This document shows positions 9,683 through 63,976 of a stretch of 64,000 bases of DNA, in pieces (within the stretch, counting starts at the first letter, position 1; the number at the start of each line of letters is the position of its first letter). The notes below the pieces were generated by a model that saw only the letters and a program-made list of their open reading frames with translations, did no database searches and had not been told where the DNA came from. This DNA is from Heterotrichella gracilis (Eukaryota; Sar; Xanthophyceae; Tribonematales; Xanthonemataceae): the NCBI GenBank assembly GCA_032358255.1, contig JAULBX010022187.1, positions 221,112 to 285,111 on the forward strand, in the 5' to 3' direction. Made by a program: the position numbers and the translations under genes.

Positions 9683-12600
9683 CTAGCCCGTGGTGCACGC
9701 CGTGTAGCGCACTGCGCATGAGTTCTCCCACGCCTTGCCATACTCAGGGTACCAGCCCGCGGCCCCGTTGCGCAGCGCTGGCGGCAGGTAGATGGCGGGG
9801 TCAAGGAGGGCAGGGGGGGCGATGCGCGCGGACTCGAGGGGGGTGGCGCTGGCTGCGGCGGCAAAGCGGGCTTGGCAGTAGCTGCGGGAGGGGGTGTGTG
9901 TGTGGGGGGGGAGGGCGGTGGTGAGTGGGTGTAGGCTTGTGTGCAAATCGTGGCAAATGTGGTATACTCCAGCTGCCAGCCGCCACCCTCTGCTCAACTC
10001 CCGCGCACGGCACCCGCTTGCCCCCAACCCACACACCCCATCATCCCACACCCACATACACATAGCAGACCCCCCCAGCACTCCCCACCAGTACCCACTT
10101 GTTTAAACAGCACCACTCCCCACCCCCCACACACATTAGACCAGCAACCCACCCCCACCCCCCAGTGCTCACTTGTTGAACAGGACCACCCCCACACATT
10201 TGACCAGCACCCCCCCCCCGCCACACACACACCCACTCACTTGTTGAACAGCACCACCCCCGGCAGCACCCCCACCAGCAGCACCAGCGCCTGCAGGTAG
10301 GCCTCGTTCACTGTGAACACCATGGCGGAGAAGGCAAGGGCCAGGCCCAGCGCCACCAAGAACTGGCGGAAGAAGGAGTCGAAGGAGCGGCCGCCAGACT
10401 CAAAGGCGCGCTCATACACGTACCTGCGGGGTAAGGGGTGAGTTAGGGTTTTGGGTGGGTTTTGGGCAGGGTTTTGTAGAGATAGGGGGGTGCGGGCGAG
10501 TAGTGTGGAGGGCCTCGTTCACTGTGGAAACCAGGGAGGACCCATTGGGAACACTACAGGGGAGAGACAGGGCAAGGCCCCAGCGCAGGCACAGTACATA
10601 GACCAGTAGCACAACCCAAGACCCTACACTTCAAGCCCCAATCAGGGATAGGACAGGGCAAAGTCCCAGCGCAGGCACAGCATGTCAACAACCACGCCAC
10701 CCGGAGCAACCACAGTAGATGACAGCAAATGCCGCGCTTGGGGGCGGGGCAGTTTTAAATTGTGGCCCAGCATGGTCCAAATTTTGAAACTCCGCCACCC
10801 GTCACCCCACTCACAGTATGTGGTGCCTCAGCATGAGCCAGTGCGTGACGAAGTACACGAATGACACCGGCAGGATGAGGGGCGACACCACCGCGTACGC
10901 CAGCGGCATCAGGTACATGCCGAGCACCTCCGCCACCTCCTTGCCGTAGCGCATGCTGATGGCGCCCAGGGACATGATCTCCTGGCGGCTGGTGCGGGGG
11001 ACTGCGGGAGAATTGGCGGGGATTAACGATTGCAGAAGGCATGTGGACGCTACGCATGATTTGGTGTTAGGGTTTTGCTAGGTACAAGGTTTAGGGTTTA
11101 GGTTTAGGCCCAACAACATCTCTTTGCCGTATCGCGTGCTGATGGCGCCAAGGGACCTCATGGCGGCTGGTGCGAGGGACTGCGGGGAGGATCGTGGACT
11201 TATTACATGGCATGTAAACGCTCGGCAATCTTGGTGTGGAAGTTCAAGGGGCAAGTTAAGGGTTTGGAGGTATGTGCCCGGCGACTCCAGAACCTCCTTC
11301 CCGTGTCGCATGCTGATGGCGCTCAGGGACTTGATCTCATGGGGTATGAGGGAGTTTCTACCAATTTTTGCACCCCAACCCTCCTCCAGAATCCTAGGCA
11401 CTGAGACCTCGGGACCGACATTGATGACTCCTGAACGGCGACCTAACCACAATCTGCAATTTATTATTTTCCTTTTGAATCCCCTGGCACTCACCACAGC
11501 ATGTCCCCGGGACCGACTGCGCCGCCACGCAGATCGTCCCAAAGTGCGGGAACACCAGGCGCAGGAAGTTGTTAAAGAAGCCCTTGAACACAATCAGCTG
11601 GATGAAGAAGTTGGCGGACAGGGGCAGGGTGACGCCGATCAGGCGGTAGATCTCCTCGGGGCTGGTGATCACAACCTGCAGATAGGGTGTGATGATGATT
11701 AGGAGGGTGATTCAATGACATTACAGTTGAGGCAGGGTGACGCCGATCAGGCGGTAGATCTCCTCGGGGCTGGTGATCACAACCTGCAGATGAGGTGTGA
11801 TGATGATTAGGAGGGTGATTACAATGATGATTACAATTACAAGGTGGGGGGGCGCCGGTCAGGCGGTAGATCTCCTCCGGGCTGGTGATCACAACCTGCA
11901 GAAAGAATATATTTACAATCATTACGTTGCAATTCATGAGAGGATAGAATTACCAAGGTAAAAAAAAAAGGTAAAGCCCTACGCGAGACGCGTAATTTTG
12001 GGACGAACCCGAAAAGGCATCAGCCGCGAAGCTGTGCACCCTTTAGCTAAGCAACCCATCCAGAAAGTGACCCTACATCATTCCCAGGTGAGCAGTCAAG
12101 CGGGTACTAAACCGACTATACCTGAAGGGCCATTTAAATGGCCTTGGTGCTCGTGAACTCCTAAAGTTTCCAATTTGTATTACCGTCAACATGACAGGGT
12201 GACGATGATGAAGTTTGTGAATACAATTACAGTTACAGCTGCGACACGCTGGGATAATGCGAAACCAATGCAGAGTTCTGCTGGAATGCATGTACGCCGT
12301 CCACACTTACCGACAGCTGCGAGAATGCCGTCCCCCCCAGCATTGCCCCAATGAACACGTTGAAAATGGTCCAGTAGAAGAAGAGCGCACCGATGCGCCG
12401 GTCCAGCTTGGACAGGGAGGGGTACTTGGACTCGGCCTGCGGGTGCGGGGTGGGGGTGGGGGATTGGATATCTGAAGCGAGTGAATTGCACCTAGAAAAA
12501 CATTTCACATCTCCTGGTTTCACTGTATCCCTCAACAGCGTGTCGTAGACGAGTGGTGTAAATTGACAACTTATTACAATTAGCAAGGCAGCATGACAGC

Positions 12601-15600
12601 AGGCCTGGTCCACACTCCCCCAGAACCCCTTCCCTAGGGTTCCCAACCCTAAACCCTTCCCTAGGTTTCCCCACCTGCGCCAGGTAGTGCAGCGCCAGCG
12701 GCAGCAGCCAGTTCTGGTACAGCGCAAGTAGCAGAAACCCTGGCCTAAGTTCCACTTCCCTAAACGCTAAACCTTCCCTAGGGTTCCCCACTTGCGCCAG
12801 GTGGTAGCGTGCCAGCGGCAGCAGCCAGTTCTGGTACAGCGCAAGCAGCAGAACCCTGGCCTAAGTTCCACTTCCCTAAACGCTAAACCTTCCCTAGGGT
12901 TCCCCACTTGTGCCAGGTAGTAGCGTGCCAGAGGCAGCAGCCAGTTCTGGTACAGCATGAGCAGTAGAAACCATAGCATTTCTGCTGGCCTAACCCCTAA
13001 ATCCTCTCCTAGGGTTCCCCACCTGCGCCAGGTAGTACAGCGCCAGCGGCAGCAGCCAATTCTGGTACAGCGTGAGCAGCAGCGCGGGTGCGATGGCTGT
13101 GATGAAATTCTTAAACTGGTTGCCCTTGTCGCACCACCACTCGGAGTAGAGGGTGTTGGAGGGGGACGAGTCGCACAGCACCAGGTTGAGCTGGGTCACC
13201 ACGCCTGCGGGGAGGTAGGGTTTTGGTCAGGGTTTTGGGGTTGGGGTTGAGTCGCGCAGCACAAGGTTGAATTGAATCACCATGCTTGCAGTGGCAGGCA
13301 AATTTCTAGTAGATTTTGTCCGGCCTTCAACAGCGCCGTGCCCGCCATCACCAATCACACCACAGCAGTCACCACCACCACACCACCACCACCACCCACC
13401 CACCTGCGGCAAACCCAGTGGGCAGCGCCATGACCGCAATGACAAGGGGCAGCACCCCCAGCGCGCGCATCTCCCGCCCCCACCACCCCAGCCACAGCAC
13501 CGACCAGTTGACCTCCTCGGGCCCAGGCGCCTGGATCACGCTGAAGCGGTGGCCGTCCTCCGGGTGGAGGTTGGCTTGCGCGGCGATGGCGGCGGCCTTC
13601 TGGGAGCTGCAGGGGTGGGGTTTGAAAGCTTGTTTAGGGTAGGCTTTAGGGTCTGGAAGCTCGAGGAGATGGAGGTTTGATTAGGGCTTGGTGGTAGTGC
13701 TTGGGGTGTGGCCGTGCTTTGCGTGCACGTTGGCTTTATACAAGCGGCCGATTTTAGGAATCACCAGGAAGCAGTGGCCATCCTCTGGGTGCAGGTTGGC
13801 TTGTGCGGCGATGGCGGCGGCCTTCTGGGAGCTGCGGGGTGGTGTGGGGCAGACAATGGGGCTCAGTGGGTGTGGGTGTGGAAGTTTCAGTGGGTGGATG
13901 GCCGGATGTGTGGTGGAATGCTTCCAGTCCGAGCAGTCAGTCAGTCCCCGTTCAACGAATAACCAGTTCTTCAATTTTCTCAGATCACCGCGATGCAATG
14001 CAGTTTATTATATATTTGCACTATTACTATTAGTCACCCCCAGGTTTCCTCACCTGAACAGCACAAAGTAGGAGGAGGTGGGTGGGCCATCCAGGATCTC
14101 CTGCCGCTGCCGCACCAGGTCCTCCTCCACCCTGTCGATCTCCCCTTCATACCACTCTACGCTGTCCACCTTGGGCCCGTAGATGGCTGGCACCCGGTGC
14201 TGGGGGCGCACGTTTCCCCCCTTGCGGGTCAGCTTCTCACTGGCTACCTCCAGCTTGGCGCACAGGCTGTCCCACTTGTCAAGGAGCAGGTCGATGCGCT
14301 GCGGGGTGGGGGGAACGGGGAGGAATTAGCCATGGAGGGATGATACCCACCTTGGTACACTTGGACGAAGTAATTGAAAATCAGCTAAGACGCCCCACTA
14401 GCATGCCCTGATGTGCTGCGGAGGGGTTGCTGATGCGCAATAGGTAGTAGCCATGGTGGGGTCGATGATTACCTTGGTACGCTTTTGGCCCGAGGTAAAT
14501 GTGGCAAAACTTCATTTACTTATTCTGGTTTGTTTGTGTGGCATGTTGCTGTGGAGTAGTTGGGATCGCCTCATTACCTTCTTGGAGTGATGATGTGGTG
14601 TGATGAGATGTGAACCGTGACAATGAGTACAATACTTGAGATTGTCCTCACTCATTGCTGACACCAAAAACCAACACCCAGCCCCAAACCCTTTCCAAAA
14701 CCCTACCTTGTGGTTCCACACAGGCACCACCTGCTGGAATGACTCTGGGAACAGGCACCTGAACGCCTCCTCAACCAACATCTTGGGAGGCATTCGGGTG
14801 GCGCTCAGCAAACCCTCCTCGACACCCTCGTCTTGGGTTTCCGAGCTGTCCCCCCGCTCGGCAGTGGGGGGTGGGGTGCCGCCGGGGGAGGAGACGGGGG
14901 TGGTGGGTATTGTGATGGGGTGCTGGGAGGGGTGGGTGGGGCTGGGGGGGCACACAGCTGCAGGTGGGGGGTGGGGAGGGGGGTGGGAAAAGGATTTTAA
15001 TATAATTATATCTAGGGGAGGGGTATTACGGTCTGCCAGCTTTGAAGTGAGATGCAGGATTGCGGTTGTAGGCAACTGTCTAGGGTTTAGGTGAGAGGCA
15101 ATGGAAGCTAGGGGGTTGCTGGGGTTTCTGCGCACCTGTCGTGGGTTGGGTGGGTTGGCCGTTGTACATGCACGACGCCATGTGGCGCCACATGACGCGG
15201 CACCTGCCCATTTGCCCCCACAGCCACTTCACCCCCTGGGACCACCGCCTGCACGCCACGTGGCACACCCCATGACTCAGCAAGAGGGGGATGAGATAAG
15301 AATGTCGCTGTTGGGGTGGATGACATATCAAAGGTGCCTGTGGGGTGGATAATTTATCAAAGGCGGGGGTGAGTATGAGCACCAGTGTGGATACCATACT
15401 GAAGGCGGCAGTGGCATGGATAAGGGGTGGATAACCACGTCGATTGCTATGACAATCCCCCGCAAAAAGCAAGCAACAGTGCAGGCAAGGGCACACAAAG
15501 GTTTGCCCAATGAATGACCTGTGCATCTCACGATGTTGGAAAATAACCCGCCTCCACAACCATGCAGTGCACTACCTTCTCCACCCCAGCTTCCCCCCCT

Positions 15601-18600
15601 TATAACCACAAACATCTGATGATTCCCTGGGTTTTCAAAATAGATGCAATGACAGCGATACCCCTGGCCATACCTTCTCCACCCCAGTTTCTCCCCCTTC
15701 CTCCCGCCCTCCTCCTCCCCCCCTGGCACGTCCATCACCAGCACCGCATACTGCTGCGCAAGCACGCCCACCTCCCTTCCCGCTGCGTTGACCGTATTGA
15801 CCAGCTTGCGGAACCTAACGGAGGGTTTTGCAAGTAGGGGAGAGGTCACGCCGTCCCGGGTGGCGGTGGGGGTGTCGGCGGTCCACCACCGATGCACGAT
15901 GGTGCCTGTGGGGTGTGGGGTAGGGGGTGAGGGGATGGCAGGGGGTTGCATGAAAGCGCATTATGGTGTTACCATCTGTGCCATCAGTAAGTGGTGTCAT
16001 CATTTGTGGAATGTTCAGCCATCATTACATGGTGTCATCATTTACATTCTCTTCTGTTCTAGAGGCTAATGTCAGTCAGTGCCTGAAATGAGCAGAAATT
16101 ACAATACCCCCTACTTGAACCCTGAACCCTGGATACCCTACACCCCACCTGTTGCCCTGTCCAGCATCAGCTCCACGCTGGTAGCAAAAATCCCAAACAC
16201 CAGTCCCTAAACCCTAAACCCTAAACCCTTAACCCCACCTGTAGCCCTGTCCAGCATCAGCTCCACGCTGGTGGTGGAGCTCTGTATGGACAGGGACAGC
16301 TCCCCTGATGCCGCAACCTCACTCATTAGAGACCTGCATGGGGGGCAGACAAGATGCATCAGCCACAGTGTCAGGGGATTTTGGGTTCCCTGGTGATTGG
16401 TGGATCCTGGCATTGTTTGCGGGTTGTTTGTGAATGGCATACACGACGTGCACTGCTCCCCGTGATGGGAATTATGTTGAGCACGCACCTGGTTGGGGAT
16501 AGCCGCTGCATGCATTGGGGGCTGGGGGGGGCGTCGTTTTCCTTCGCCACCCCCGGTCCCTCCCCTTCCTCCCCCGCACTCTCGCGCCCCCTCAGCAGCC
16601 TCCGCCGGCTCAAGGAAGAGGCAAAATTGGGTGAAATTCCCAGCACCCCCGGGGACCCGGGGTCCAAATTCGACCCCCCCGAAAACGGCGTCGGGCCACC
16701 TGGGGACCCCGCCTCGCCCTGCCTGGTCCCCAGAAATTCCGGGCTGCTGGGCAGCCTGGGAATCTCTATTCCCTCCCCTCCCATGCTGCTCTCGCTCAAC
16801 TGCACCTCCCTTGAGGATCGCACCGTCGCCCTCCCCGTGCTTTTCGCGCTCTCGCCCCCCCCCTCCCCATCGTCGCTCCTGTGCATGTGCTGGAGCAGAG
16901 ACTCCTCAGCAATGCTGCGCATGTCGGGCCTGGGGGGCCGCCGCGCGCTCCCAATTAGGGCCCTGTTCATGCCCCCCCTGCCAAATGACGGGGCGCGCTG
17001 GGGCCCCGACCCGGCGGGCGCCGTGGAGGGTCCAAATTGCAGGCTGCTGGGGTCCTCCAGCCCGTATTTGTCGGCGGAATCCTCGTAGGCCAGCAGGGGG
17101 GCGCGCGCCTCGGGGCTCGAGGGAATCACAAGGGGGGTCAGCCCCTGGGCAAATTTGCGGGAAGCCGAGGGCGGCTGCGGCGGAGGGGTGCCACTCTCCT
17201 CTACCCCCTCATCTCTCTCCACCCGCTGCCCCGCCCTTTCCTCCCCTTGCGCTGACAGCTGAGTGATATTATCATCCCCTGGGGGGAGTGGGAGCTCAGT
17301 TGCATTGGCTGGGGATTCCCGCCGCTCCACCCTACCCCCACCCTCCCCGTTTTCTGATTTGAAGATGTTGCCAGATACCACCCGGGCAGGCGCAGTGGTG
17401 GGCCCAAACCGCGAGAAATTCCCGGAATTCCCGTCCCCCTCCCTGCCCCCTCCCCGCCGCCGCATCGACCCCTCCCCATCCCCCCCCCTGCCCCGCACAT
17501 AGGAGAAACTGGCACCCCGTAGGGTATTGTCTAGGGACTGCCTGTTTAGGGTTTTCAGGTACTTGGTCATGGGTCCGCCGCTGGGGAGGGCCTCTCCGGA
17601 GAGCCGCTCGTCAAGGCGCAGCATCTGAAGGGGCAAAGGGGGGGGGGGGTAGGTATTTGTTTGTAAGACAATATTGATGTTTAGGTATTTGGTCAGCCTC
17701 GGTGGCAAAAAGGAAGTGGCGGATCCGTGCTGTGATAAATTGTACAATGACGGAAATATTGTCTTACAAACAAGGGTTACAATTAAATTGGTCAGAGTCG
17801 CTGCCAACCCAAAACACAGCACCCTACTACAACCCTAGTAAGGGTTTTACCTCCTTGAACAAGAAGAGTGCTTCAAATCGCTACCGTAACCCTAACCCAC
17901 ATCCATACAAAAACCATAACAAAGGGTTTTTACCTCATCGGGGATGAACAGGGTCTTCAGCCGCTGCAGCACGTTTCGCTCCTCGGGGCTCTTGGAATCG
18001 TCCTGCCCATCGTCCTTTTTGGAATCCCCTTCCGGTTTTCCCCCATCCCCGACCTGGTCTGGGCCTGTCCCCGGGATGTACCTCCTCATCCACACGTTGA
18101 TGTCGTCCTCTGTGCCCTGGGTGAGGTGGCGCTGGCGCAGGATGACGTAAGACTGCAGTGGCGTGAAATGGAGAGGTCAGGAGCATGCATTAATAGTGTT
18201 TGCAGCACTCGCCGGCTGATGCAAGGAATGATATAGACGATGGGTGTGGTGGAAAGCGCCTGGGCTTGGAGGTGTTGCCCCGCCTGCGGAAGTAACCACA
18301 GCCATAGGGAATGGGAAGCTAAAACATGCTTGAACTCCCCACCTTGCGCTATACATACCGCCACCAACACCATCGTAGTGCATGTGCAGCAGTCAGCACA
18401 AACAGACCAGCACCCCCCCCCCACACACACACCTTGTAGTGCATGTACAGCAGCCAGCAGGAGTAGACCACCACCAGAATGAGCACAAGCAAGGAAACCC
18501 TACAAGGGGGGAGTGTAACATGATCAACCACCTGCTTGAGGTCGACAGTATTGGATGGGAGGACATCAGAATTAGCACAGGGACCCCTGCATTCTCCAAA

Positions 18601-20704
18601 GCAAGATCCTTCGATATATGTTCTCCACTGGCGCGAGCCGAGCTCATCTGCCTAGCAGCATGCACATATTTTTCAACAACAGACTACTTTTGACAAGGCC
18701 GCCGCATCTGTATGCATACCAGCGTGTGGCATATTTTATGCAATGCTTTCCTCCCCTCCACCCACCAGTATACTCCCGACCCCTTGCTGATGTTGCCCAG
18801 CGTGTATTTGACAAAGGCGGAGCTGTCGGCCCCGTTCTGGGTCACCTGGTTGGAGCCCTGGCCATACAGGGGGAGCACTGCGGGATGGGGGGTGAAGGGG
18901 AGGTCACCGCCAGTTGCAGGGTGGGGGGTGCCAAAGGGTGCCTCAAGCATGGGGCCATGTCCCGGGGATGTGCCATGTCATCGTGCAAGTTAGCGTGCCA
19001 GTAATGGGACGAGGTCGTGTGGGAATGCGGTTTGTATTCAGCATGAGATGTTGGCCCATTGCTGAGGTCAGGCATGCAAAGTGGGCCATGTTGCATTGCT
19101 GTGCCAGGCATGTGGTGTGGTCATGTGGGTCATGTGCGGCAGGGGAAGGATGCCCTAATACCGTATACCCCAAACCCTAAGGGTACTTACGCAGCGCCAG
19201 CGCGACCACAGACAGCGGCAGGTACAGCTGGATGCCCAAGGCAGTCATGCGCAGGAGCATCTGCGGGAGGGGAATGGGGGCTGTGTTCCCGTATGGTGTC
19301 ATTAGGGACCTCTAGGGTTTTCATTAGGATATTTCCTCCCACCCACCAGTGCGTCCAGTCCCGCTGTCAGCAGCACCTCCCTGTCGCTGGTGGTCAGCAC
19401 AGGCCACAGGCACCAGGGTATCATAAGGGTTTCATTGGGTTCATCTAGGGTTTTCGTTAGGGTTTTCCTCCCCACCCACCAAAGCGTCCAGCCCCGCAGT
19501 CAGCAGCACCTCCCTGTCGCTGGTGGTGAGCACAGGCCACAGCCACAAGGGTGTCATAAGGGTACCATTACGGACCTCTAAGGTTTTCATTAGGGTTTTC
19601 CCCACCACCCACCAGTGCGTCCAGCCCCGCTGTCAGCAGCACCTCCCTGTCGCTGGTGGTGAGCACAGGCCACAGCCAGTTCCACAGCTGGGACACGCAG
19701 CGCAGGTGCTGGGCGGGGGGTTTCACCCACACAGTGGGGAGAAGCTGCAAGGAGGGGGGTAAAAACGGTGTGTGTGGTGTGTGTGTGTGTGCATGGGTAG
19801 GCGTGCGGTTGCCAGAGTGTTATTTTGTTCCACCCATGGGCGCATGTTGAATGGCATGGCATGGCATGGCATGGCGCAGACTAATGTCAGGGCGTGACTA
19901 TTGTGTACATTGGTGACCCTGGGACGCAGACGACTCTCACTGGGAACCAAGATTCGAGGTGCATTTTGAAGATTTTTGTATGTTGGTTTGCGGTGAGCAT
20001 GAACCCTAACCTGGAGCCTGCAAAACCCTTACCAGCCTGGTGCGGTACACCTTGAGGTGGCCCCTGACCACAAAATTCTAAACCCGAGCCTACAAGACCC
20101 TTACCAGTCTGGTGCGGTACACCTTGAGGTGGCCCCTGAGCAGTCCAAACAGCAGCAGGCATGACGCGCCAGCCACGCTGCTCACGATGAACCTACGCAA
20201 GGGTTTGGGCTAGGGTGTTGGATGAGGTTTTGGAACAGGTGTGCATGGCAGATATGGGTCAGGTGAAAATGACAGGCCTGCGGTCGATGCGGCCCTGTGA
20301 ATGCGAGTGCATCTGCTAGGGTTTGGGCTAGGGTTTTGGGGAAGGGGTTTGGAGCATGGGTCAGACATCAAAGGTCAGGGGTCAATAACAGGTGGGCGGT
20401 GCTCCTTTTATTATTACGTGTACAATGCACAAGTCAGGAGGTCTAAGGGCTTGTGAAGTGCAAAATGTGCAGCATACATGGCTTGGTGTATGCATGCATG
20501 TGCCGATGTGTGCGAGGCCAATGTGGATACTTACGAGGTCCGAAGCTCGCTGCCCGATATGTTTGTGTTGTAGCAGTTCGAGAACAGGATCTCGGGGCTG
20601 CAGTTTGGCGGCGGTGGCGGTGCGAGGGCGGCCGGGGCGGGGGGCGGATACCCACTGCTGCCATTGCCACCCACCACATCTTGCAATAGGGTTCGGAACC
20701 ACAT
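9683..20704 (-). CDS. OSCA/CSC1/TMEM63-type mechanosensitive cation channel
   Basis: Predicted 1446-residue membrane channel of the OSCA/CSC1 (DUF221/RSN1_7TM) family, which opens calcium-permeable pores on membrane tension or osmotic change. Exons, 5' to 3': 20535-20704, 20105-20192, 19613-19744, 19191-19260, 18766-18877, 18433-18499, 17934-18152, 16489-17624, 16239-16333, 15674-15905, 15136-15398 (weak), 14707-14957, 14054-14298, 13404-13606, 13023-13204, 12311-12436, 11495-11675, 10815-11001, 10241-10423, 9683-9881. Phases join and the sum is divisible by three. Family marks: N-terminal TM at ~58-78, WNWLWPVL and AGLDAL, TMs at ~134-153 and ~192-210, cytosolic PHM7-like domain (QYAVLVMDVP, PAIYGPKVDSVEWY), pore TMs with NVFIGAMLGGTAFSQL, RYGKEV and YVYERAFESGG. 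Residues ~290-665 are a Gly/Ser/Pro-rich insertion in one 1136-base exon; typical relatives are about 750-800 residues. The 15136-15398 exon rests on phase alone. Confidence 0.88.
10096..10190 (-). repeat. Two extra copies of an exon 3' edge (OSCA-like, penultimate exon)
   Basis: The junction 'CACTTGTTGAACAGCACCAC' at 10238-10257 is the end of the coding exon (..LFN) plus its donor. Near-copies lie at about 10096-10116 and 10168-10189 in the downstream intron. The nearer copy keeps the GTGAG donor. Confidence 0.8.
10508..10600 (-). repeat. Diverged internal-exon copy in the upstream intron
   Basis: The phrase 'CCTCGTTCACTGTG' followed by an AAGGCCCAGCGC-like phrase repeats part of the exon at 10241-10423, here at 10508-10600 in the intron on its 5' side and again partially near 10655-10680. 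No open frame is preserved. Confidence 0.6.
11731..11901 (-). repeat. Two extra copies of an exon 5' edge with acceptor
   Basis: The exon at 11495-11675 begins after CTGCAG with codons for VVITSPEEIYRL. The same exon start and acceptor recur at about 11731-11789 and 11851-11901, together with intron sequence (GATGATGATTAGGAGGGTGA). Each copy has a usable-looking AG acceptor, but none has its own donor. Confidence 0.9.
11941..12180. repeat. Intronic insertion with a dispersed-repeat end
   Basis: This block sits in the intron between the copied exon edges and the next upstream exon and does not resemble its surroundings. It starts near a 10-A run, contains the phrase CCTACGCGAGACGCGTAATT, and includes the palindrome GGCCATTTAAATGGCC (12129-12144). 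The reverse complement of the GCGAGACGCG phrase with its CCAAAAT flank recurs at about 59926-59953. A short interspersed element is possible; no element family is recognised. Confidence 0.45.
12664..12960 (-). repeat. Three extra copies of an exon 3' edge with donor
   Basis: The exon at 13023-13204 ends with codons for YQNWLLPLALYYLAQ and donor GTGGGG. Copies of this end, donor included, lie at about 12903-12960, 12789-12845 and 12675-12725, spaced by about 115 bases, and each is followed by the same CCTAGGG-type intron phrase. Only the distal true exon is full length. Confidence 0.92.
13771..13846 (-). repeat. Copy of an exon 5' half with acceptor
   Basis: This repeats the start of the exon at 13404-13606 (codons for QKAAAIAAQANLHPEDGH) including the GCAG|CTCCCAG acceptor. 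It lies in the upstream intron and would provide an alternative, donor-less exon start. It stays close to the exon for about 70 bases. Confidence 0.88.
16147..16235 (-). repeat. Copy of an exon 3' edge joined by a telomere-like tract
   Basis: The end of exon 16239-16333 (codons for TSVELMLDRAT and donor GTGGGG) is repeated at 16147-16184. Between copy and exon lie four successive CCCTAAA-type units (16205-16234). This is the clearest case of a telomere-like tract sitting exactly at the joint of a duplicated exon edge. Confidence 0.9.
18350..18420 (-). repeat. Diverged copy of an exon 3' edge (second N-terminal TM exon)
   Basis: 'GTAGTGCATGTGCAGCAGTC' at about 18377-18396 repeats the end of the exon at 18433-18499 (codons for LLYMHYK). 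A GT-rich donor-like tract separates the two. Confidence 0.65.
19346..19545 (-). repeat. Two extra copies of an exon 3' edge with donor
   Basis: The end of the exon at 19613-19744 (codons for LTTSDREVLLTAGLDAL and donor GTGGGTGG) is repeated at about 19478-19545 and 19346-19410, in a ~130-base unit that also carries the adjoining intron phrase with TTAGGGTTTTC. Coding similarity is near-complete over the copied edge. Confidence 0.92.
20031..20080 (-). repeat. Copy of an exon 3' edge with donor
   Basis: The end of the exon at 20105-20192 (codons for RGHLKVYRTRL and donor GTAAGG) is repeated about 70 bases further into the intron with few changes. Confidence 0.9.
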
Positions 20705-31059: not shown

Positions 31060-32161
31060 TCAATGCGCAGGCCTGGGGTACATTGGCACCTGCTGGAGGC
31101 AATGCTCGCCCCGTATCTCCAGCAGAGTGAGGCTGGGCATGAGCGGCAGCACCAGCGGGTCACTAGCTAGCCCTATAGGAGGACACTTGAACACCAAGCG
31201 TCGGAGGTTGGTGAGGGCGGCCAGGGCAGGGGTCAAGCCCCGTATCACATGGCATTGCCCCTCGGTTTGCCACGCCAGGTTGAGCGACGTGAGGTGGACG
31301 AGGTCTGGGAGCAGCGCCATGGCATCCACATCCACCCAGATGTCTTGGATGGACAGGCTCTGTAGGGAGGTGGGGAGGCTGCCTGGCGGGATGACTGTGT
31401 TGCAGCCCTCCACAGTCAAGCTCTTCAGCTGGGTGAGCTGGCGCAGGGAGGTGCTGATTGCGGGAACTGGTGCACCAAAGGGTCCATAGGGTTCTCTCAC
31501 TTCCAGGCTGGTCAGCGCAGGCTGGTGGACCAACATGGGGACACAGTTGCGAGGTGCATGTGCCACCCCGCTCAACCCGACCCGTGCCATGCAAAGTTTG
31601 GGCAGGCATGGGAGCTCCGGCCACCAGGGCTCTGTGCTTTTGACATTAAAGTCGAGCACCTCCAGGTTGATCAGTGCTGACATGGCAGGCATGCTGGCCG
31701 CAACATGCTCTGGGGCGCACTTCAGGCGAAGATCCAAAAAGGTCATCGAGTTGAGGCGGAAGGCGGCATCGAGCATCAGGCCAGCACTGCTCCCCCTGCA
31801 GGCACACCTGTGTGAAGAGGTGTACGACAGGTACACACCCTGGGTTGAGGCTGTTGATCAGGCGCAGCACGTGCTGCGGCTCGGAGTACGGGCAATAGAA
31901 GAACTTGGTGGCCCCCAGCCTGGAGCACAGCCAGTCTACCCCTGGCTTGTTTAGTGACCAAAGTACCCCAATGTCTTCCCATGCCGCACTTGGTCCTGCC
32001 ATCGTCTGGCGCCAGCGCTTGCACACCAGCTGCAGGTCCAGCTTGCCGGTTCTGAAATCGTGTTCTGCTGCACCGATGATCTGCTGCAGGAGGTGGTCTG
32101 GGAGGGAATGTATGGGGCACACATCACTTCCCTGCGCTGGCACCTCTGCCAAAGTGGCCAT
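31060..32161 (-). CDS. F-box / leucine-rich repeat protein
   Basis: Predicted 352-residue F-box protein; such proteins usually recruit substrates to SCF ubiquitin ligases. Exon 1 (31839-32161) starts at ATG 32161 and holds the F-box: HSLPDHLLQQI, then LQLVCKRWRQ, and PSAAWEDI. Exon 2 (31060-31795) has about eight LRR-like strands: NSMTFLDLRL, LINLEVLDF, QPALTSLEV, LTQLKSLTV, TSLQSLSI, HLTSLNLAW, LTNLRRLVF and PSLTLLEIRG. The two lie in different frames. They join correctly if a 43-base GT-AG intron (31796-31838) is removed. The paralogue at 58.3 kb has a similar CAG just before the same GGGGAGCAG, which supports splicing over sequencing error, though the intron is unusually short. An in-frame upstream methionine could add ~24 residues. 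Confidence 0.8.
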
Positions 32162-34961: not shown

Positions 34962-35077
34962 TGTGATAGATTTGGCTGTTCAAGCAAGCAGGTAGTTGGA
35001 AGGACGACTGCGCAGAAGGGGAGTAGAGGCGGTGTGCAGGCAAGAGCAGGTTTGAATGAACTGTGAAGCGTGGGCGA

Positions 35078-35084
35078 TTATATA
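35078..35084 (-). promoter_or_regulatory. TATA-like element of the small membrane protein gene
   Basis: TATATAA reads on the minus strand, 117 bases before the ATG at 34961, in otherwise mixed sequence. Spacing is compatible with a core promoter and a 5' UTR of about 85 bases. No experiment is available. Confidence 0.45.
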
Positions 35085-36470: not shown

Positions 36471-36494
36471 CCTCTACCGCTCTCCACACAAACT

Positions 36495-36763
36495 CCACCC
36501 TTCAATGCGTGAGCGCTGATGGCCAGAATGACCCCACCCCCCACCCCCCACCAGTGCACTAGGTGGGCGCCTCCTGTGCCATGACGGGCAGGGTGGTCCC
36601 CCACTCCCCTCATCCCCCATCCACCACCGCCCGATGCATGGGCGCCTCCTGAGCACTGAAGTCCCTGAGGGTGATTCCCCCCCACCGCCCAATACATGGG
36701 CGCCTCCTGTGCCGTAATTGATAAGTTCCCCCCCTCCCCTCTCCAGTCCCCCTCCCCCAGCGC
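36495..36763 (-). repeat. Tandem copies of the HtrA gene's terminal exon beyond its stop
   Basis: The end of the last exon (36764-36805, codons for [10 protein letters not shown] and the stop) is repeated downstream of the stop at about 36690-36725, 36634-36670 and 36556-36600, with a weaker one near 36500. Each carries a GGGCGCCTCCTG core with an AATGC or AATAC phrase. The copies fall in the presumed 3' UTR. Confidence 0.88.
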
Positions 36764-41256: not shown

Positions 41257-41278
41257 CACATGCCCCACTTCCGCAGTT

Positions 41279-52800: not shown

Positions 52801-54832
52801 CAAAACCCCTGACCCCTGTCCCACCCCCACAGGTCCCTCCATCGCGCCGAGTCTCCCCACGAAATCACCCCCTTGCTCCTGGCCCTGGCGCACCAGCTCA
52901 ACCCTGACACCCTAAAGAGGGCTTCCAAGGACACCCTGTGGGACGACCTGCGCTCCTTCCTGTGCATGCTGCCAGCTGGCGTGCCCTCGTTGGATCGATC
53001 GGCAGGGGGTGGGGTGGGGCCTGGGTGCCTGGGGCTGGATCGGGCTGTGGGGGCGCTTGAGGAGGCGGTGGATTGGGCGCGGCTGAGGAAGGTGTGGGTG
53101 CCGCTGCAGGTGGGTGGCGGGGGGGGTGGGGGCCGGTGGGGATGGAAGATATTGGTCCTAGCTGGTGGGCACCATTTGTCGGGTGCCAGGGGCACGCTGC
53201 AATTTGAAACCGTGCTTAGGTTTTTGTCAGGTCATTTACGGTTTTTGTACAGTTTGGACTGCTCAGCTCTGTCGTAGAAAGCCATCTACCGCTGCTAACT
53301 GTCTATTCTTTCCAGATCCGTGACGTTTTCTAAACCCAGGGTGATAAGAAATTATACTAGCCCTGTTATTATGTTATTATCCTTGCTAAATCCTACCCAG
53401 CCCCCTATCCTCCACCATTAATGATGTTCTCCCAACACCCCGCAGGCCACCGCCGCCACCGCCCCCACCAAGCCCCCCACCCGTGACGAGCGGCGCGCCG
53501 CCCCCCGCCACAGCCACACATCCACCACCCCCATGCCCAAGCACGAGCCCGCCCCCCCCCCCCCATGCCCCACAGCGCTGAGACGTCCCCTGAGGATCTC
53601 ACCCCTCTGGTGGGGCAGCGGCCAGCGCCAGGTGACGGCGCGGCAGCGGCTAAAGTGGCGCAGGTGGGTGTGGGCCTGGAGGTTGTAGACTTGGGGCCCA
53701 AGGTTGCGATCACGATAGAATGAAACATTGAGAAATTACTGATCACTTAGAAATGCATCTACAAGGGTTTAGGGTTTCCAAGCCCCAAAGCTGGTGTGTA
53801 AGGCACAGTATTGCACATGGCTGGGTGCTGTAGAGAAAGCCAGGCGCCTGCATTTCCCCAAATCTTTTCATGCCAAAACCATAACTTGTGGTAACCAGGG
53901 GATGATTAAAAAACACAAGCATGCAGTACTTGCTCTGGTCGCAAGCCTTCCGCCTAAAAAATGGTGGGTGTCGCTGTGCAGTGCAGCGGATCGCACATGG
54001 GCCTTTGAGCCTAAGGCACCTCCACACCACATGGCTCAATGGCTCACCCATTCCCCCCTGCCCGCACCGCCCCTGCCCCAACGCATGGCGCCATCACCAC
54101 CACCACCACCCTCTTCTGCCTGTACCTGGGCCCAAACTACGGCTACCAATCACCCACCACCATTACCACCACCCACTCCTGATCACTCTTTGGACCCAAA
54201 GCATGGCTATCAACCCACCACCACCACCACCACACACCACCACCACCACCATGCAGGCCGCAGCCGGTGGGGAACCCTTGGAGGGTGCACCTCCCCCCGC
54301 CCCTGCCCCAATGGACGTGGACACCGCCACCCACCACCACCATCACCACCACCACGCGCGCCCGCCGCCTGCCGCCGCCCCCCCGCCCCGCCCCCGCACA
54401 GCGGATGTGGATGTGGATGCGCTTCACGCCCTCACCACCATGGCAGCTGTTCGATCGCACCACGAGGAGCGGGCAGCCGCAAGCTCCTCCGCACCGGTGG
54501 AGGGTGGGGGGGCGCATGCGCAAGGTGGGGGGGATCAGGGGGGAGAAGGTGGAGAAGCGCTTGCTGGGGAGGAAATTTTGGAAGTCGCCCAGCCTGCGCC
54601 ACTGGAGGACTGGGGCGAGCCTCAGGTGCCTGATTACACGGGTGGCCGGGACCACTCGGGGGATGGGGAGCAAGTGCCAGGTGGCAGCACGTCAGGGAGC
54701 GCAGCGGCGGAGATACCTGTGGCTGCGGCTGCGCAGCCCCCTCCGGGGCCCCCTCCACCCCCCTCCAGCATCACCAGCCCCTCCTACTTGGCGCTGCTGA
54801 TGGAGGAGGGGGAGGGGGCGGGGGGTTTGTAG
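46879..54832 (+). CDS. RAMA-CW-ARID domain chromatin protein
   Basis: Predicted nuclear protein of about 1100 residues. Exons: 46879-46987, 47110-47860, 48705-48917, 49925-50452, 51024-51152, 51599-51796, 52119-52427, 52833-53109, 53446-53663, 54257-54832. Residues ~10-82 match a RAMA domain: GVFVPGANRL, GEILFEDKVFRSPSAF, DDGWNSVKYW. Residues ~254-291 form a CW zinc finger with Cys 257, 262, 280, 291 and Trp 265, 278; CW domains can read histone H3 lysine methylation. Residues ~363-435 match ARID, a DNA-binding fold: LDVFGLYKAVIAFGG, ATSIGNQLLTNYKKFLYQYE. The rest is low-complexity, ending SPSYLALLMEE. The ATG follows a TTAG, so it could instead be an internal exon start. Exon 53446-53663 is one base out of phase across a 13-C run. 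No characterised protein with exactly this domain set is known to me. Confidence 0.82.
48445..48640 (+). repeat. Copy of CW-exon 5' edge in the upstream intron
   Basis: 'TACGCCCGCTGCGCCGCGTC' at 48452-48471 repeats the first codons (YARCAAAQQ) of exon 48705-48917, and the phrases after it (ACACCGAC.CCT.CTGCAGGA) recur twice before the true exon with a shared CCCACCCCACCCCCCAC spacer. Confidence 0.85.
49035..49660 (+). repeat. Four extra copies of CW-exon 3' edge with donor
   Basis: The end of exon 48705-48917 (codons for EEGLAKQIREQRIT, then TG and donor GTGGGTGG) is repeated at about 49041-49103, 49221-49280, 49426-49482 and 49611-49652, spaced by about 170-200 bases, each with the same intron phrase (GGGCATGTGG..GTGTGCGG). 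The last copy has lost the donor GT context (CATGTGGCG). Confidence 0.95.
50918..50970 (+). repeat. Copy of an exon 5' edge with acceptor (chromatin gene)
   Basis: 'GCAGGAAGCAGGAGCTGGAG' at 50925-50944 repeats the acceptor and first codons (KQELEA) of exon 51024-51152 about 95 bases upstream, with CCTTAGGGTTTGTCCC-type spacer. Confidence 0.92.
51205..51385 (+). repeat. Two extra copies of an exon 3' edge with donor (chromatin gene)
   Basis: The end of exon 51024-51152 (codons for TLLLAQDSRDLN and donor GTGGGA) recurs at about 51208-51262 and 51326-51380, with a repeated spacer carrying GGTTTAGGGTTTGTGTATTT. Together with the 5' copy, this exon is flanked by decoys on both sides. Confidence 0.94.
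53552..53564 (+). other. 13-C homopolymer at a coding frame break
   Basis: Upstream of this run the exon reads TAAPTKPPTRDERRAAPRH in phase with exon 52833-53109. Downstream the plausible frame (SAETSPEDLTPLVGQ..AKVAQ, ending in phase with exon 54257-54832) is shifted by one. A single-base length error here would reconcile them. Confidence 0.7.
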
Positions 54833-58306: not shown

Positions 58307-59400
58307 ATGGCCACTTTGGCAGCGGTGCAAGGCCAGCAGTGTGATGCGTGCCCCATACACTCCCTCCCAGACCATCTGCTGCAGAGGATCATCGCAGTGA
58401 CAGACCGACCCACCAACAAGAGGGCGTAGCTGCAGCTGGTGTGCAAGCGCTGGCACCAGGCACTGGCAGGACCTAGCGCGGCATGGGAACACATCTACTG
58501 CCGGACACTCACCAAACCAGTGGTAGACTGGCTGTGCTCCAGGCTGGGAGCCACCAAGTCCTTCTCTCTTCTGAATACCGAGCCACAGCACGTGCTGCGC
58601 CTGCTAAACAGCCTCAAACCCAAGGTGTATCACTGCCATACACTGGTGTTGGTTCAGGGGGAGCAGTGCAGGCCAGATGCTTGAGGCCGCCTTCCGCCTC
58701 ACCTCCCTGACTTCCTAGAAACTGCTCCTGGCGTGCGCCCCGGGGCATGTGGCACCCAGCATGCCTGCCATGTCAGCACTGGTCAACCTGGAGGAGCTCC
58801 ACCTTGATGTTTACAGCACTGAGCCCTGGTGGCCGGAGCTTCCATGCCTTCCCAAGCTGCGGATGGCAGGGGTTAGGTTGAACGGGGCAAACTTTGTCCA
58901 CATGCTCCTCCACCAGCCTGCGCTCACCAGCTTGAAAGTGCATGAGCCCAATGCACCCTCGGATGGACCAGTTCCCACAGTCAGCACCTCCCTACGCCAG
59001 CTCACCCAGCTCAAGAGCTTGACTGTGCAGAGCTGCGGCATGGCCGTCCCCCATGGCAGCCTCCCCGGCTCTCTACATAGCCTTTCCATCCTTGACATTT
59101 TTGTGAGAGTAGATGCCATGGCGCTTCTCCCGGACCTTACGCACCTCACATCACTCAGCCTGGAGTGGGATACAACGCTTTCTGGGATCCGGGGCTTGAC
59201 CCCTGCCCTGGTTGCCCTCATCTTCAACAATTGGTGGTCAACTGTTACGGAGCGCGTCCGCGCCCGCTGCTGCTGCCACCCATGCCCAGCCTCACACTGC
59301 TGGAGATGAGGGGTGTGCCTGGCGTGCAGCTGATGGTGCCAATGCACCCCAGGCTGCGCATCGTCGCCCATGGCGAGTGGTACCAGGGGACATATGGCCC
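58307..59400 (+). pseudogene. Decayed F-box / LRR paralogue
   Basis: Closely related to the gene at 31060-32161: it keeps MATLAAVQGQ, HSLPDHLLQRI, LQLVCKRWHQALAGPSAAWE, PWWPELPCLPKL, SLRQLTQLKSLTV and DAMALLPDL in the same order. It is broken by TAG at 58427 inside the F-box, by TAG at 58716 at the start of the LRR region, and by a frameshift near 59215, after which LQQLVV and PSLTLLEMRG continue in another frame. The mini-intron position is preserved but would not restore phase. The tail (59380-59440) has a direct duplication of a GGTGGTACCAGGGGACATA phrase. Confidence 0.85.
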
Positions 59401-59640
59401 ATTGAATGGCGGGTGGTACCAGGGGACATACGGCAAGGGGTTAAAAGTATGCATCAAGGGGCGACACGGGGTATACAGCATGGTTATGGATAGGCAGGGC
59501 GGCGTTGTGGTGAAGGCAGAGCAGCGCCTGCCCCCGGGTGCCCTTTCAGACACTGGCCAGATGCAGGAGGCGAGGGACGAGCAGGAGCGGTGCTGTGCGT
59601 GGCTGCGCATCGCAGCAACCTGGGGGGACCTCTAGGGTGG

Positions 59641-60784
59641 TCCTCTAGCGAACCACAGACCCCTGGGCCAGGCAGTGAGCACGCTTGTCACCATGCACAG
59701 CCTGTTGGCAATGTGAGTGACACAATCACGGTGACCACCATGCCATGTTTTCAAGTCAGGCGTTGCACTGCAGTGGCCTGGTGGTCCCAGGCTGGCACCA
59801 GGCAGAAGCAAAAGATCTTTGGCAAAAGAGCTTCCATGCATGGGGACCCCGGCGCTGCACGGCCGCCAACAGATCTGCTGGCCCTTCAGCAATTTTCATA
59901 GCTGTATTGGTGGTATTATATTTCCAAAATGACGCGTCTCGCGTCAGGCTTCACTGTTTTTTAAATAGCTGAGCTGGATTTACAAACAAACAAACAAGTT
60001 GAACAGGGTGGTGGAATACAAGGAGCTTTTTTGTTAAGCCCTTATGTAGACAGTCACTGGCAGGCACAGCAACCCAGGGCCTTTTCATAAATGATTTCTA
60101 AATGAAGTGCGGTGATGATAAGATTATGGCATATGCTGCTGTAAAAAACAATTTTGCTAAGATGGGCCATCTGGGTCTCAGACTGAGCCATCGGTGAACA
60201 CCATCTACCACATCATCTTGGCAAGGGTCTTCCATGTTGGTGACTCCCATGATGATTACATTACATGGATAATTATAGAACAATGATGTCATCTGGCATG
60301 GGCTTGGGCATGTTCATCCATCATGCGCCTAGTATGGGCCAATTTAAGAATGGGCCTAAAATAATTCCATCAATGACTTCATTGCCGCGCCAAGCATGAT
60401 GCCAAAAACTGGCTGGCAATCAGTGGCAACTGGCAAGCAGATCCCCCGCTGGGACCCGGTGCGAGAGAAAGAAAATGCTCCACTGGTGACAGTCCAGGGT
60501 GAAGTACACACCTCCCCTGGGGTGAGGCTCAAGACTCGACTCGAACCGTGACAGCAACAGCCCAATGGTGATGCAATTACGACAGTCACTGCAAACCAAA
60601 ATGTACTTCCCGACCCCCAGCTGTAAACTCCCAGCTGATATTACTTGCAATTGTGATACGTATTTCCCAATCCCCCAGGCCCAACAATCCCTCTCCCTGA
60701 ATGCCTTGACAAGCATTTGACACCACCGCCCCTCCCCACCCACCGCACACCACACCACACCTACCTCGCCATCATTGTATCACC
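59641..60784. other. Intergenic, no gene recognised
   Basis: It contains the dispersed-repeat match near 59926-59953 (CCAAAATGACGCGTCTCGCG) and AT-richer sequence. No open frame is supported. Confidence 0.45.
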
Positions 60785-60935
60785 CCCACCTCCCTCCCCA
60801 CCTCCGCAAACGCGCCTACCGCCTTATCCAGCTGCTCCCTGCCATGCGCTGCTGACAGCTGCACACTAATGCACCCTTGTGCATGGCCCCTTGGGCACCA
60901 CTGGGTAGCTGAACCCCACCAAGCCCCCGCCCCTG
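60785..60935 (-). repeat. Copy of the KBL terminal exon end beyond its stop
   Basis: This repeats about 150 bases of the last exon of the KBL gene, including codons for LSAAHGREQLDKAVGAFAEV and the adjacent promoter-proximal PVVP region, with mismatches (GREQ for SREQ, AVGA for AIGA). It starts about 60 bases after the true stop at 60993 and is out of the gene's reading. Confidence 0.92.
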
Positions 60936-60992
60936 CTAAGCACACACTCCAACCACATGTCGTCGAATCTTCCCCCCCACACACCACCCCCC

Positions 60993-63976
60993 TCATTGAA
61001 GCACCCCCACCTCCCTCCCCACCTCCGCAAAGGCGCCTATAGCCTTATCCAGCTGTTCTCTGCTATGCGCTGCTGACAGCTGGACCCTAATGCGCGCCTG
61101 GCCCTTGGGCACCACTGGGTAGCTGAACCCCACCACATACACCCCCTTGTGCAGCATGCGCTCCGCCACCTGGCTGGCCAGGCGGGCATCCCCAAGCATG
61201 ATGGGGACGATGGGGTGGTCCCCGGGCCGGATGTTGAAACCCGCCTGCGAGGGGGTGGGGTGAAGCTGAAACGCAAGGTAATTGACACTGCTGCTGCGGC
61301 CAAAATCGGCATTAGTAAAATTTCTGCAAATGTTGTTAAATGCGCCGTTATGACTGGTGTGTCAATGTGCTGCACCTTATCTCCCAAGACATGGCAATAA
61401 AAATACTTTTTGTAAGAAATCCTCAGAATAGTCACAGCATAGTGGATACTGGGGTCATTTATACTGGAGCACCTATGCAAGGAAATGAACCCACCTGCGT
61501 CATTTGTTCTCTGAAGTGGCGTGTATTTTCCTCCAGCCTGTCCCTCAGCTGTGTGCTCTCCCCTAGCATGCGGAACACCTCCAGGGATGCACCCACCACA
61601 GGGGGGGCGATGGAGTTTGAGAACAGATAGGGGCGCGCCTTCTGGCGAAGGAGGTCGATCACCTCCTGGCGGCCGGTGGTGTAGCCACCTGTGGGAGGAG
61701 GTTAGGGTTTTAAATGGTCTAGGTTTTAAAGTTGTAGGGTTTTAGGCTTTTGTGGCGTATCGGTGCTATCTCCTCCTGGTGGCTGATGCTGAAGCCATGG
61801 GCGAAGGGGGGCCGTTGTGTGGCGCAGCCGATACCCCCTCACCCCCCACCCACCAACCCCCCCACCCACACAGCAGAACGACAATAAAAATACACCGGCA
61901 CATGTACCACCAATGCTCGACTTCACCTAATTACCCATTATGCATTTATTCCCCAACGTCCTGCCCCCGCCGCCCCGCCTCACCAGTGCCGCCCCCCAGC
62001 GCCTTCCCCAGAGTCGAGTTTATTATATCCACCTGGCCGCGCACCCCCCAGTACTCGTCGGTGCCGCGCCCGCTGGGGCCCAAGAAGCCTGTGGCGTGGC
62101 ACTCGTCCACAAACACAAATGCGCCGTATTTCTTGGCCAGGGCACAAATGTCCTTCAGGGGGGCCACGTCGCCATCCATGGAAAACACCCCGTCTGTGGC
62201 GATCAGGCGCAGCCGAGCGGTTTGTGTCTCTTTAAGCTTGGCCTCCAGGTCAGCCATGTTCATGTGCTCGTACCTGCAATTTGGGAGAAGGATTTCTATT
62301 AATACTTTGTAAATTAAATCATTTTTTTGCTTTCTGCTCTTTGCTTCGGATTCCCCAATACGATACTAGATGGGAAATGGCGCTCTGGATCTGGTTGGGC
62401 TGGGCATCTATTTTGGCCACATTCAGGTGATTGTATTTGTGAGGAGCTTCCCAGGGGTGTACACCATTGTAATCCTGCCCACCCACCCCACCTGTGCCGC
62501 TGCGCTTTGCACAGCCTGACCCCATCAATGATGGAGGCGTGGTTGAGCTGATCGGATATGATCGCATCCTCGGCAGTGAGAATGGCCTCAAACAGCCCGG
62601 CGTTGGCATCGAAGCATGATGGGTACAGGATGGTGTCGTCGGTGTCGTGGAAGTCAGAGATGCTGTGCTCCAACTGCTTGTGGATGTCCTGCCGAGGTAT
62701 GGGAAGGGGGGGGAAGGGGTAGGTGCGGGTGTGGGGGAAGGGGGGAAGGGCATGTGTGTTTCTTGATGCGTTTGTTGGCTTGAGGGTGTAGAGTACAGGG
62801 TGTGGGGTACAGGGTGGTATTTTGGGTGCCATGCAATTCAAAGATGCTGTGCTCTAGCTATTTGCAAATGTCCTGGGGGGGGGCGGGAAGGGGTTTGGGT
62901 GGTGATAGCCATGGGTGCATCGGGATTGAATTGGGATTGGGTAAAGAGGCGGTGGTGCAGGATGCAGGGTGCAAGGTGTTGGTTTAGTGCAGAGCTGGGT
63001 GTACCCACCTGTGTTCCGCATATGAAGCGCACCGACGACAGCCCAAAGCCGTGCGTGTCCAGCGCCGCATGGGCTGCTGCCACCACCCGCGGGTGGCTGG
63101 AGAGGCCGAGGTAGTTGTTGGCGCCTGGGAAGACAGGGGTGGGAATGGGAACAGGGGAGGGAATGGAATGGCGTGCAGAGAGCAAACTGCCAAGTGTAGT
63201 GGAAAGAACAATTCATAGTACAAAAATGCACTATAAACCAAAAAATCTGCGGCTGTATAATCAGGCGTGGTGTGGGATGCATTTGTCGCGCCAAGTGACA
63301 GGGTGTACAGGAATTGCGGGGATGACCTCAGCAAGAGTGGTGTGGCGGTGCGTGGCTGGGTTTAGGGTTTGGGGTTTGAGATTAGGGTTAGGTGGGTACT
63401 CACATAGGTTGATGACTGGTTGCTGGATGCCCTCCACGGCTGCGGGACACAAAAACCGCTCAGTACAAATGTGCGTTGTCGTACTCCACCACAGGTTGCA
63501 GGTACAGGTAACCCATGGTATGAAACGTCCTCCTCACGACAAAACACCAGGTCTGCAGGGTCGCACACCTATGGTTGCGACCTTTGAGGGGTCAGTCTGT
63601 CCTCCCTTGCGGTTTGGGGCTTTGGACTTGTGCGCCTATCTGTACAGCTGCAGGTTCAAAACCCTAAACCCTAACCACATGGCGTGCGGTGGTGCTGAAC
63701 TCCTGTACTACGGGGGCTTAGGGTTTAGCCCCTTAGGGCTTAGGGTCCGGCACCTATGGTTGTTGCCTGCGGTGAGGTAATGCTGAACTCCTTCTTCCAG
63801 GTGCCAGCACCCCGAATTTCCTCCAGCTGCTGTCCCAGCACCCGGCGCAGCAGGTCGGGGGTTTGGGGTTCTTGTGCGGTCACCTGGGCGCCCGCCACCA
63901 TTGGCCCTGTGGCGAAACGGCGGGCCAGGTGGGATAGGCGGAACAGGGTGGAGGTGCTGGAGGTGGTTGACCTCAT
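60993..63976 (-). CDS. KBL: 2-amino-3-ketobutyrate CoA ligase (glycine C-acetyltransferase)
   Basis: Predicted 435-residue PLP enzyme that converts 2-amino-3-oxobutanoate and CoA to glycine and acetyl-CoA in threonine breakdown. Exons: 63754-63976, 63404-63439, 63009-63124, 62492-62688, 61984-62273, 61495-61688, 60993-61244; all phases join. Family marks: [72 protein letters not shown], and the PLP lysine (~281) in STLGKALGG. The C-terminal part has [15 protein letters not shown] and RVQLSAAH. The lysine is 37 residues later than in the E. coli enzyme (Lys244), which fits an N-terminal extension; that leader ([14 protein letters not shown]) resembles a mitochondrial presequence. ATG 63976 is the first in frame. 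Confidence 0.94.
62836..62885 (-). repeat. Copy of a KBL exon 5' edge
   Basis: 'GATGCTGTGCTCTAGCTATT' at about 62843-62862 followed by GCAAATGTCCTGGGG repeats the start and acceptor of exon 62492-62688 (DIHKQLEHS codons), displaced ~170 bases upstream. A shorter copy of the exon-1 donor edge (ACCTATGGTTG..) lies near 63566-63585. Confidence 0.75.

Follow-up and report, generated by a model that had tools for sequence, protein, structure and literature searches.

Introduction

Rogers 1989 and Hellsten 2011 are reportedly the sources for the idea that introns arise when exonic AG/GT segments are duplicated in tandem, and the survey of Gao and Lynch 2009 is said to have found internal duplication of gene segments to be common. 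For Drosophila, introns formed in this way from coding sequence have been described (PMC2891723), and for the potato RdRp gene a tandem duplication crossing an intron-exon boundary that made a new intron (PMC4974935). Two further papers report long introns without a short peak in relatives of Chlamydomonas (PMC8226300), and short telomeric repeats inserted during break repair in primates and rodents (PMC7215372).

Here we describe a contig, C223, in which a wide search yielded 120 partial copies of exon edges at 71 of 556 exon-intron junctions, all in the adjoining intron. These are local direct copies that hold both exon and intron sequence, as in a tandem duplication spanning the exon-intron boundary. 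They lie inside existing introns as decaying pieces, and we argue below that they are probably the remains of a recurrent process that was not aimed at the splice site.

Sequence sample and gene models

The window is the final 64 kb of contig C223 (285,111 bases), from an assembly of 68.5 Mb in 903 contigs, and the whole contig was analysed. Plastid-type genes and a TTTAGGG-like motif may point to a green alga. The gene models were produced by a gene-finding HMM trained on C223 without RNA or annotation, and they contain errors. The HMM returned 27 gene blocks and 323 introns (median length 323 nt), with the donor consensus CAG/GTGAG and a C/T-rich acceptor ending in GCAG/G. It often merged adjacent genes and took some of the copies for exons; the label of 11 of these was corrected to copy. 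At least two models in the window are wrong in detail, at the donor of the RAMA-CW-ARID gene and at the end of the KBL gene. The six gene names assigned by the first-pass annotation were borne out by Pfam, single exons giving matches above the cut-off for Lipase_3, Trypsin (HtrA-like), DUF1995, zf-CW and Aminotran_1_2 (KBL-like), with RSN1_7TM (OSCA-like), RAMA and ARID below the cut-off. Two of the 10 exons submitted had no Pfam match.

The comparison sample from other contigs (C2, C4, C8, C24, C46 and C277) comprised 8 loci with 46 introns; it is small and non-random, five of the eight loci having been found through GT repeats, and the overlapping loci L005, L006 and L008 were not used. Contigs C1, C83, C111, C145, C331 and C442 carry unbroken ABC transporter ORFs, several of more than 600 aa, which suggests that they are putative bacterial sequence in the assembly.

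Exon-edge copies in the window

The first-pass annotation had counted more than 20 partial copies of exon edges in the window; we found 40, at 25 of 150 junctions (75 usable introns). The copies, with the introns given by the HMM, are as follows.

10070-10193, minus strand: OSCA-like gene, two decayed copies (10149-10193 and 10070-10145) of the donor-side exon end, HMM intron 9882-10240
11301-11342 and 11125-11186, minus strand: copies of the acceptor edge of exon 10815-11001, intron 11002-11494
11731-11813 and 11847-11905, minus strand: copies of the acceptor edge of exon 11495-11675, unit of ~108 nt, intron 11676-12310
12883-12967, 12767-12851 and 12647-12734, minus strand: donor-edge copies, source exon 13023-13204, intron 12437-13022; the array (12647-12967) has a tandem unit of ~116 nt and is local to its own locus
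13243-13289, minus strand: acceptor-edge copy, weak (score 27), intron 13205-13403
13774-13845, minus strand: acceptor-edge copy, source exon 13404-13606, intron 13607-14053
15573-15601, minus strand: weak donor-edge copy, intron 15249-15682
16118-16182, minus strand: donor-edge copy, intron 15906-16238
18358-18398, minus strand: weak donor-edge copy, intron 18153-18432
19450-19539 and 19317-19406, minus strand: donor-edge copies, source exon 19613-19744, tandem unit of 133 nt, intron 19261-19612
20006-20070, minus strand: donor-edge copy, intron 19745-20104
22224-22253 and 22381-22432 (donor-edge copies) and 22582-22624 (acceptor-edge copy), plus strand: lipase gene, intron 22150-22689
23025-23055, 23083-23136 and 23164-23217, plus strand: acceptor-edge copies, source exon beginning at 23302, tandem unit of 81 nt
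24087-24184 and 24375-24472, plus strand: donor-edge copies, source exon 23832-23986, in an intron excluded from the counts
35625-35676, minus strand: HtrA-like gene, acceptor-edge copy, intron 35588-36814
43499-43547, minus strand: DUF1995 gene region, acceptor-edge copy, intron 43349-43802
44367-44411 (intron 44154-44464) and 44725-44757 (intron 44696-44869), minus strand: donor-edge copies, both weak
49032-49661, plus strand: RAMA-CW-ARID gene, four donor-edge copies, source exon end at 48917, spacing 175-202 nt
50896-50954, plus strand: acceptor-edge copy, intron 50474-51023
51205-51297 and 51320-51400, plus strand: donor-edge copies, unit of ~108-115 nt, intron 51153-51598
54077-54110 and 54127-54171, plus strand: acceptor-edge copies, both weak, HMM intron 53664-54201
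60750-60959, minus strand: copy in the 3' flank of the KBL coding end (source 60972-61172), stop codon included
61750-61797, minus strand: KBL gene, weak acceptor-edge copy, intron 61689-61983
62815-62893, minus strand: KBL gene, acceptor-edge copy, intron 62689-63008

The annotation also had each copy spanning a splice boundary. This holds for 24 of the 25 junctions, which are true splice junctions; the remaining one, the HMM 'intron' 60859-61494, is a gene-model error, and the copy there is of the end of the KBL gene, with its stop codon and no splice junction. The 188-nt tandem array at 24087-24472 contains a 100-base N gap (24275-24374) between flanking copies that are ~98-99% identical over 98 nt, and its copy number is therefore uncertain.

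Two larger local duplications of coding-like sequence were also seen in the window, pairing 504-1215 with 3492-4205 (79% identical, shift ~3.0 kb) and 5042-6293 with 7707-9099 (68% identical, shift ~2.7 kb). Exon 6589-7257 of that region was submitted to Pfam and had no match. The proteins of the predicted genes 31060-32083 and 58470-59635 are similar by eye, and the first of them has weak leucine-rich repeat matches, below the Pfam cut-off.

Distribution of the copies along the contig

After introns shorter than 120 nt, longer than 1500 nt or containing N had been left out, 278 introns of C223 were usable. Windows of 40 nt at 546 junctions (273 introns, those with too-short exons being omitted) were compared with the rest of their own intron, and matches at a score of at least 20 were obtained for 27/273 donors and 23/273 acceptors (50/546 in total). 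The foreign-intron control gave 0/273 donors and 0/273 acceptors (0/546; Fisher p ~5e-16), and the wrong-exon-end control gave 0/448 (Fisher p ~4e-14). The exon-edge copies are thus confirmed as real and far above chance. As the first-pass annotation had described, they are partial, occur on both strands and have a direction, exon tails lying downstream and exon heads upstream: no exon head was matched in the downstream intron (0/221) and no exon tail in the upstream intron (0/227). Exon-interior windows were copied into the intron in 1 case of 150. On these interior and opposite-end counts, tandem exon duplication of the kind that yields alternative exons was rejected.

Self-comparison of the contig yielded 200 local pairs, which fell into 82 clusters at 70% identity or more; 54 of these span an exon edge, 13 are confined to introns, 4 to exons, and 11 lie outside these classes. 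Median copy spacing was ~106-110 nt, the copies lying head-to-tail or with spacers. Among the 41 listed pairs of at least 86% identity, 15 were contiguous within 10 nt and the others had spacers or diverged flanks. Introns with edge copies were longer (median 451 vs 311.5 nt). The first 180 kb held 19 junction families (164 introns), the stretch from 180 to 221 kb held 27 (39 introns), and the window 25 (75 introns). The middle part (C223:180000-221111, loci L027-L031) is a hot spot, with a median intron length of 458 and the densest telomere-like motifs of the contig. Copies were found at 5/92 junctions of the other contigs sampled.

The two families searched against the whole 68.5 Mb assembly (12647-12967 and 49032-49661) had no copies outside their own locus. 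On the strict locality of these two families (of 71 junctions) we rejected mobile elements, and introner elements likewise, as the source of the copies. Copying from spliced RNA was also rejected; the copies read hold exon-intron edges and not exon-exon joins.

Probable recurrent local duplication and decay

We consider it likely that the copies are scars of recurrent short local duplication in and around introns, tolerated and left to decay, with no mechanism aimed at the splice site. Short local duplication would recur in and around introns, through a repair pathway that may involve microhomology or slippage. A duplication reaching from the intron into the exon end would be tolerated if the spliceosome kept the outer, original site, and the inner copy would then decay as neutral intron DNA. 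Duplications inside exons or over whole exons would mostly be purged, a step that the small number of exon-only clusters (4/82) suggests, and fully intronic duplications would be harder to recognise, since both of their copies decay. The expected outcome is a set of ladders of partial exon ends with a fixed direction.

The first-pass annotation had stated that ordinary exon duplication does not give this pattern. However, tandem duplication that keeps the mRNA intact yields the same direction. The mRNA is unchanged only when the outer site is used. After a donor duplication this is the first donor, and surviving copies must then lie downstream of it; after an acceptor duplication it is the last copy, and they must lie upstream of that. 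The direction rule therefore requires no special mechanism.

Duplications in introns and in intergenic DNA

It is possible, rather than probable, that an intron-specific process linked to transcription or to break repair makes the duplications, and that junctions are hit because introns are hit. The telomere-like tracts of the introns would then be products of this process or a source of microhomology for it. Such a process would be compatible with the decay part of the explanation by tolerated local duplication given above. It is favoured by the distribution of local copies, which were found in 121/1931 intron windows (248 introns) vs 6/974 predicted intergenic windows (23 segments), and by that of telomere-like heptamers, with 5.07 per kb in introns vs 0.38-0.57 in intergenic DNA and 1.8-2.0 in gaps. 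Introns are about tenfold denser than predicted intergenic DNA in both. Since predicted intergenic DNA has far fewer copies, duplication, or the tolerance of duplication, is not uniform. However, unassigned gaps of more than 1500 nt inside gene blocks, a class that includes a satellite at 87-88 kb, were intermediate (45/1292). For the first 180 kb alone the figures were ~30-31/1018 in introns, 6/901 in intergenic DNA and 34/860 in the gaps; the gaps thus match introns there, and the contrast between introns and intergenic DNA depends on the nature of the gaps. Intergenic DNA may moreover be constrained by promoters and UTRs. Pieces of two intergenic segments were essentially single-copy in the genome, with a weak match of 59 bases at another place for one of them; these segments are therefore not obvious young transposons.

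No 7-mers are more over-represented in the introns than the telomere-like CCCTAAA/TTTAGGG (for example at 23223-23283 and 16205-16235 of the window). AAACCCT was counted 254 times in introns vs 6.8 expected from base composition, and the two-unit telomere-like 14-mer 7,154 times genome-wide vs 4 for the reversed control. The sense strand is biased to the C-rich form, with 395 vs 199 on C223 and 44 vs 17 on the other contigs, a further point in favour of an intron-specific process. Duplication boundaries lay near telomere-like tracts in 34 of 153 cases vs 16.8 expected, again in favour of such a process, but this test, which excluded the satellite (87.0-88.6 kb) as well as 102.3-102.8 kb and 182.0-183.6 kb, is confounded: boundaries were enriched for the control motif CACCACC too (6 vs 1.8), the boundaries of paired copies are not independent, and a common motif may stretch alignments. 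Shared sequence at the breakpoints of contiguous duplications was modest (mean 7.8 vs 5.0 nt, n 21), which also counts against such a process.

A fuller form of the same idea, which we judge unlikely, makes the introns of this lineage a special target of transcription- or break-linked repair that leaves both duplications and short telomere-like tracts. Introns would grow, junctions would become ringed by partial copies, some of them refreshed from the exon edge, and intergenic DNA would stay nearly free of both. Why introns collect so many duplication scars is, in our view, a more interesting question than the junction pattern.

Position of the duplications relative to the junction

The first-pass annotation had proposed that the duplications are anchored at splice junctions. 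A mechanism acting there, by slippage or repair at the splice site, or with the true exon edge as the source of repeated copying or of gene conversion, appears improbable to us. Local copies were found for 15, 15 and 13 of the 278 windows at three positions in the intron interior (43/834 on C223) and for 17/278 windows placed 13-52 nt into the intron. A profile in 30-nt steps was flat through the intron, the first intron window reaching 0.98 of the interior mean (CI 0.67-1.32). The last exon window reached 1.73 of the interior (CI 1.31-2.21), and values dropped to 0.1-0.2 at 90-150 nt inside the exon. Only the exon side was thus raised over the interior. A junction-anchored mechanism should raise both sides; with the intron side flat, it is not supported. 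Part of the shoulder on the exon side is expected, because the exon copy is constrained and decays more slowly. The existence of duplications in the intron interior and the copying of a stop-codon end in the same manner also argue against a mechanism that acts at junctions.

However, the exon-side excess on C223 is larger than simulation predicts. The junction-to-interior ratio was 1.74 (CI 1.25-2.67), 2.09 (1.46-3.38) and 1.64 (0.94-3.13) at three thresholds, whereas uniform tandem duplication followed by purging gave 0.73-1.04 in six simulated settings at the three thresholds, and 0.94-1.30 for the last exon window in five settings. At score 20 the three contig parts, taken singly, gave 1.58, 1.65 and 2.00, all above the simulated null. 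Of the 67 clusters that reach into an intron, 54 also reach into an exon. Geometry predicts a fraction of 0.39 (p 9e-12), and a doubled visible lifetime of exon copies raises the prediction to 0.56 (p 4e-5). With the cut at 85% identity the count was 22 of 31 (p 6e-4 and 0.11 under the two assumptions). The other contigs gave a ratio of 0.83 at score 20 (5/92 vs 9/138) and 1.20 at score 24, from 46 introns, too few to decide; no clear excess was seen there, which counts against a junction-acting mechanism. A residual junction excess of ~1.6- to 2.1-fold is left over on C223; it speaks against the explanation that we prefer, and is one of two points in favour of a junction-acting mechanism.

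The other point comes from the five-copy family of the RAMA-CW-ARID gene (48857-49661), in which the exon-derived part is kept while the intron part diverges. The HMM placed the donor at 48959; we favour 48917 (GT at 48918), because of the frame into the ARID exon at 49925. When split at 48917/48918, the copies agree among themselves at 227/240 exon-derived positions (95%) and 158/223 intron-derived positions (71%). Under neutral decay after successive duplications, we reason that the exon part should diverge at no less than half the rate of the intron part; here it diverges at about a fifth. The contrast is too unequal, and simple neutral decay is therefore insufficient for this family. Such a contrast might come from the exon edge being copied repeatedly, from gene conversion with the constrained exon as template, or from selection on the copies. 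This conservation is specific to the RAMA-CW-ARID family and is not general. Most other multi-copy families have no conserved core at the junction, which counts against a mechanism acting there. The acceptor family at 11676 is an exception, although its outermost copy may simply end at the junction, and the family at 88784 is uninformative in this respect, since its two copies overlap each other.

Decay of the copies and their possible function

Mismatches between true exons and copies amounted to 206/1529 (13.5%), 187/1546 (12.1%) and 296/1510 (19.6%) at the first, second and third codon positions, the third position contributing 296 of 689. The near evenness of positions 1 and 2 is what a free copy would show, and silent change in the true exon raises position 3. 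Identity from copy to copy in 15 families was 698/824 for exon-derived and 658/793 for intron-derived sequence, with the RAMA-CW-ARID family wrongly split; with this family re-split, the summed values were 831/946 and 733/901. The distance to the true site was a multiple of three in 35 of 120 copies, with no frame bias. Pooled copies thus decay roughly like neutral DNA, and most are probably debris.

It is accordingly very unlikely that the copies serve as decoy splice sites with a regulatory function in splicing, a role raised in the first-pass annotation. Of 107 copies, 86 retain the GT or AG, a share slightly higher than the 72.5% for exonic dinucleotides (p 0.08), and the conserved exon-derived part of the RAMA-CW-ARID family would fit such a role. 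However, apart from that one family, the pooled copies have no frame preference, no coding constraint other than the one acting on the true exon and no clear conservation of the splice site, and exon- and intron-derived parts decay similarly in most families. Misassembly, to which the N gap at 24275-24374 between nearly identical copies of one array might point, can hardly be the source of the copies, since most of those listed differ by several to 30%, and this it would not create.

Comparison with known systems

About 1 in 8 splice junctions of C223 has recognisable partial self-copies beside it (71/556), with 5/92 elsewhere in a small sample. If this extends genome-wide, the genome would offer a natural experiment on how the spliceosome chooses among near-identical sites, and on intron growth. 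The contrast between introns and intergenic DNA would also make a link of duplication in genes to transcription or repair testable. A note of caution follows: selection and unequal decay can let such ladders mimic a directed mechanism.

The common internal duplication of gene segments that the survey of Gao and Lynch 2009 reportedly found is a likeness to our case. We found no boundary-spanning duplications at a comparable scale in the open PMC literature searched, a negative that is weak evidence. The copies resemble introner elements in being repeated sequence associated with introns (PMC9860276); unlike introners, which spread between genes, the two families tested here are confined to their own locus. 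The Drosophila case (PMC2891723) shares with ours a short local duplication within genes that is resolved by splice-site choice, but there the duplications lie in coding sequence and make introns, whereas here they span existing junctions or are intronic. The closest likeness in form is to the potato RdRp gene (PMC4974935), with a local tandem duplication across the boundary that carries the acceptor and the start of the exon; the copies on C223 differ from it in being decaying pieces inside existing introns, at 71 of 556 junctions.
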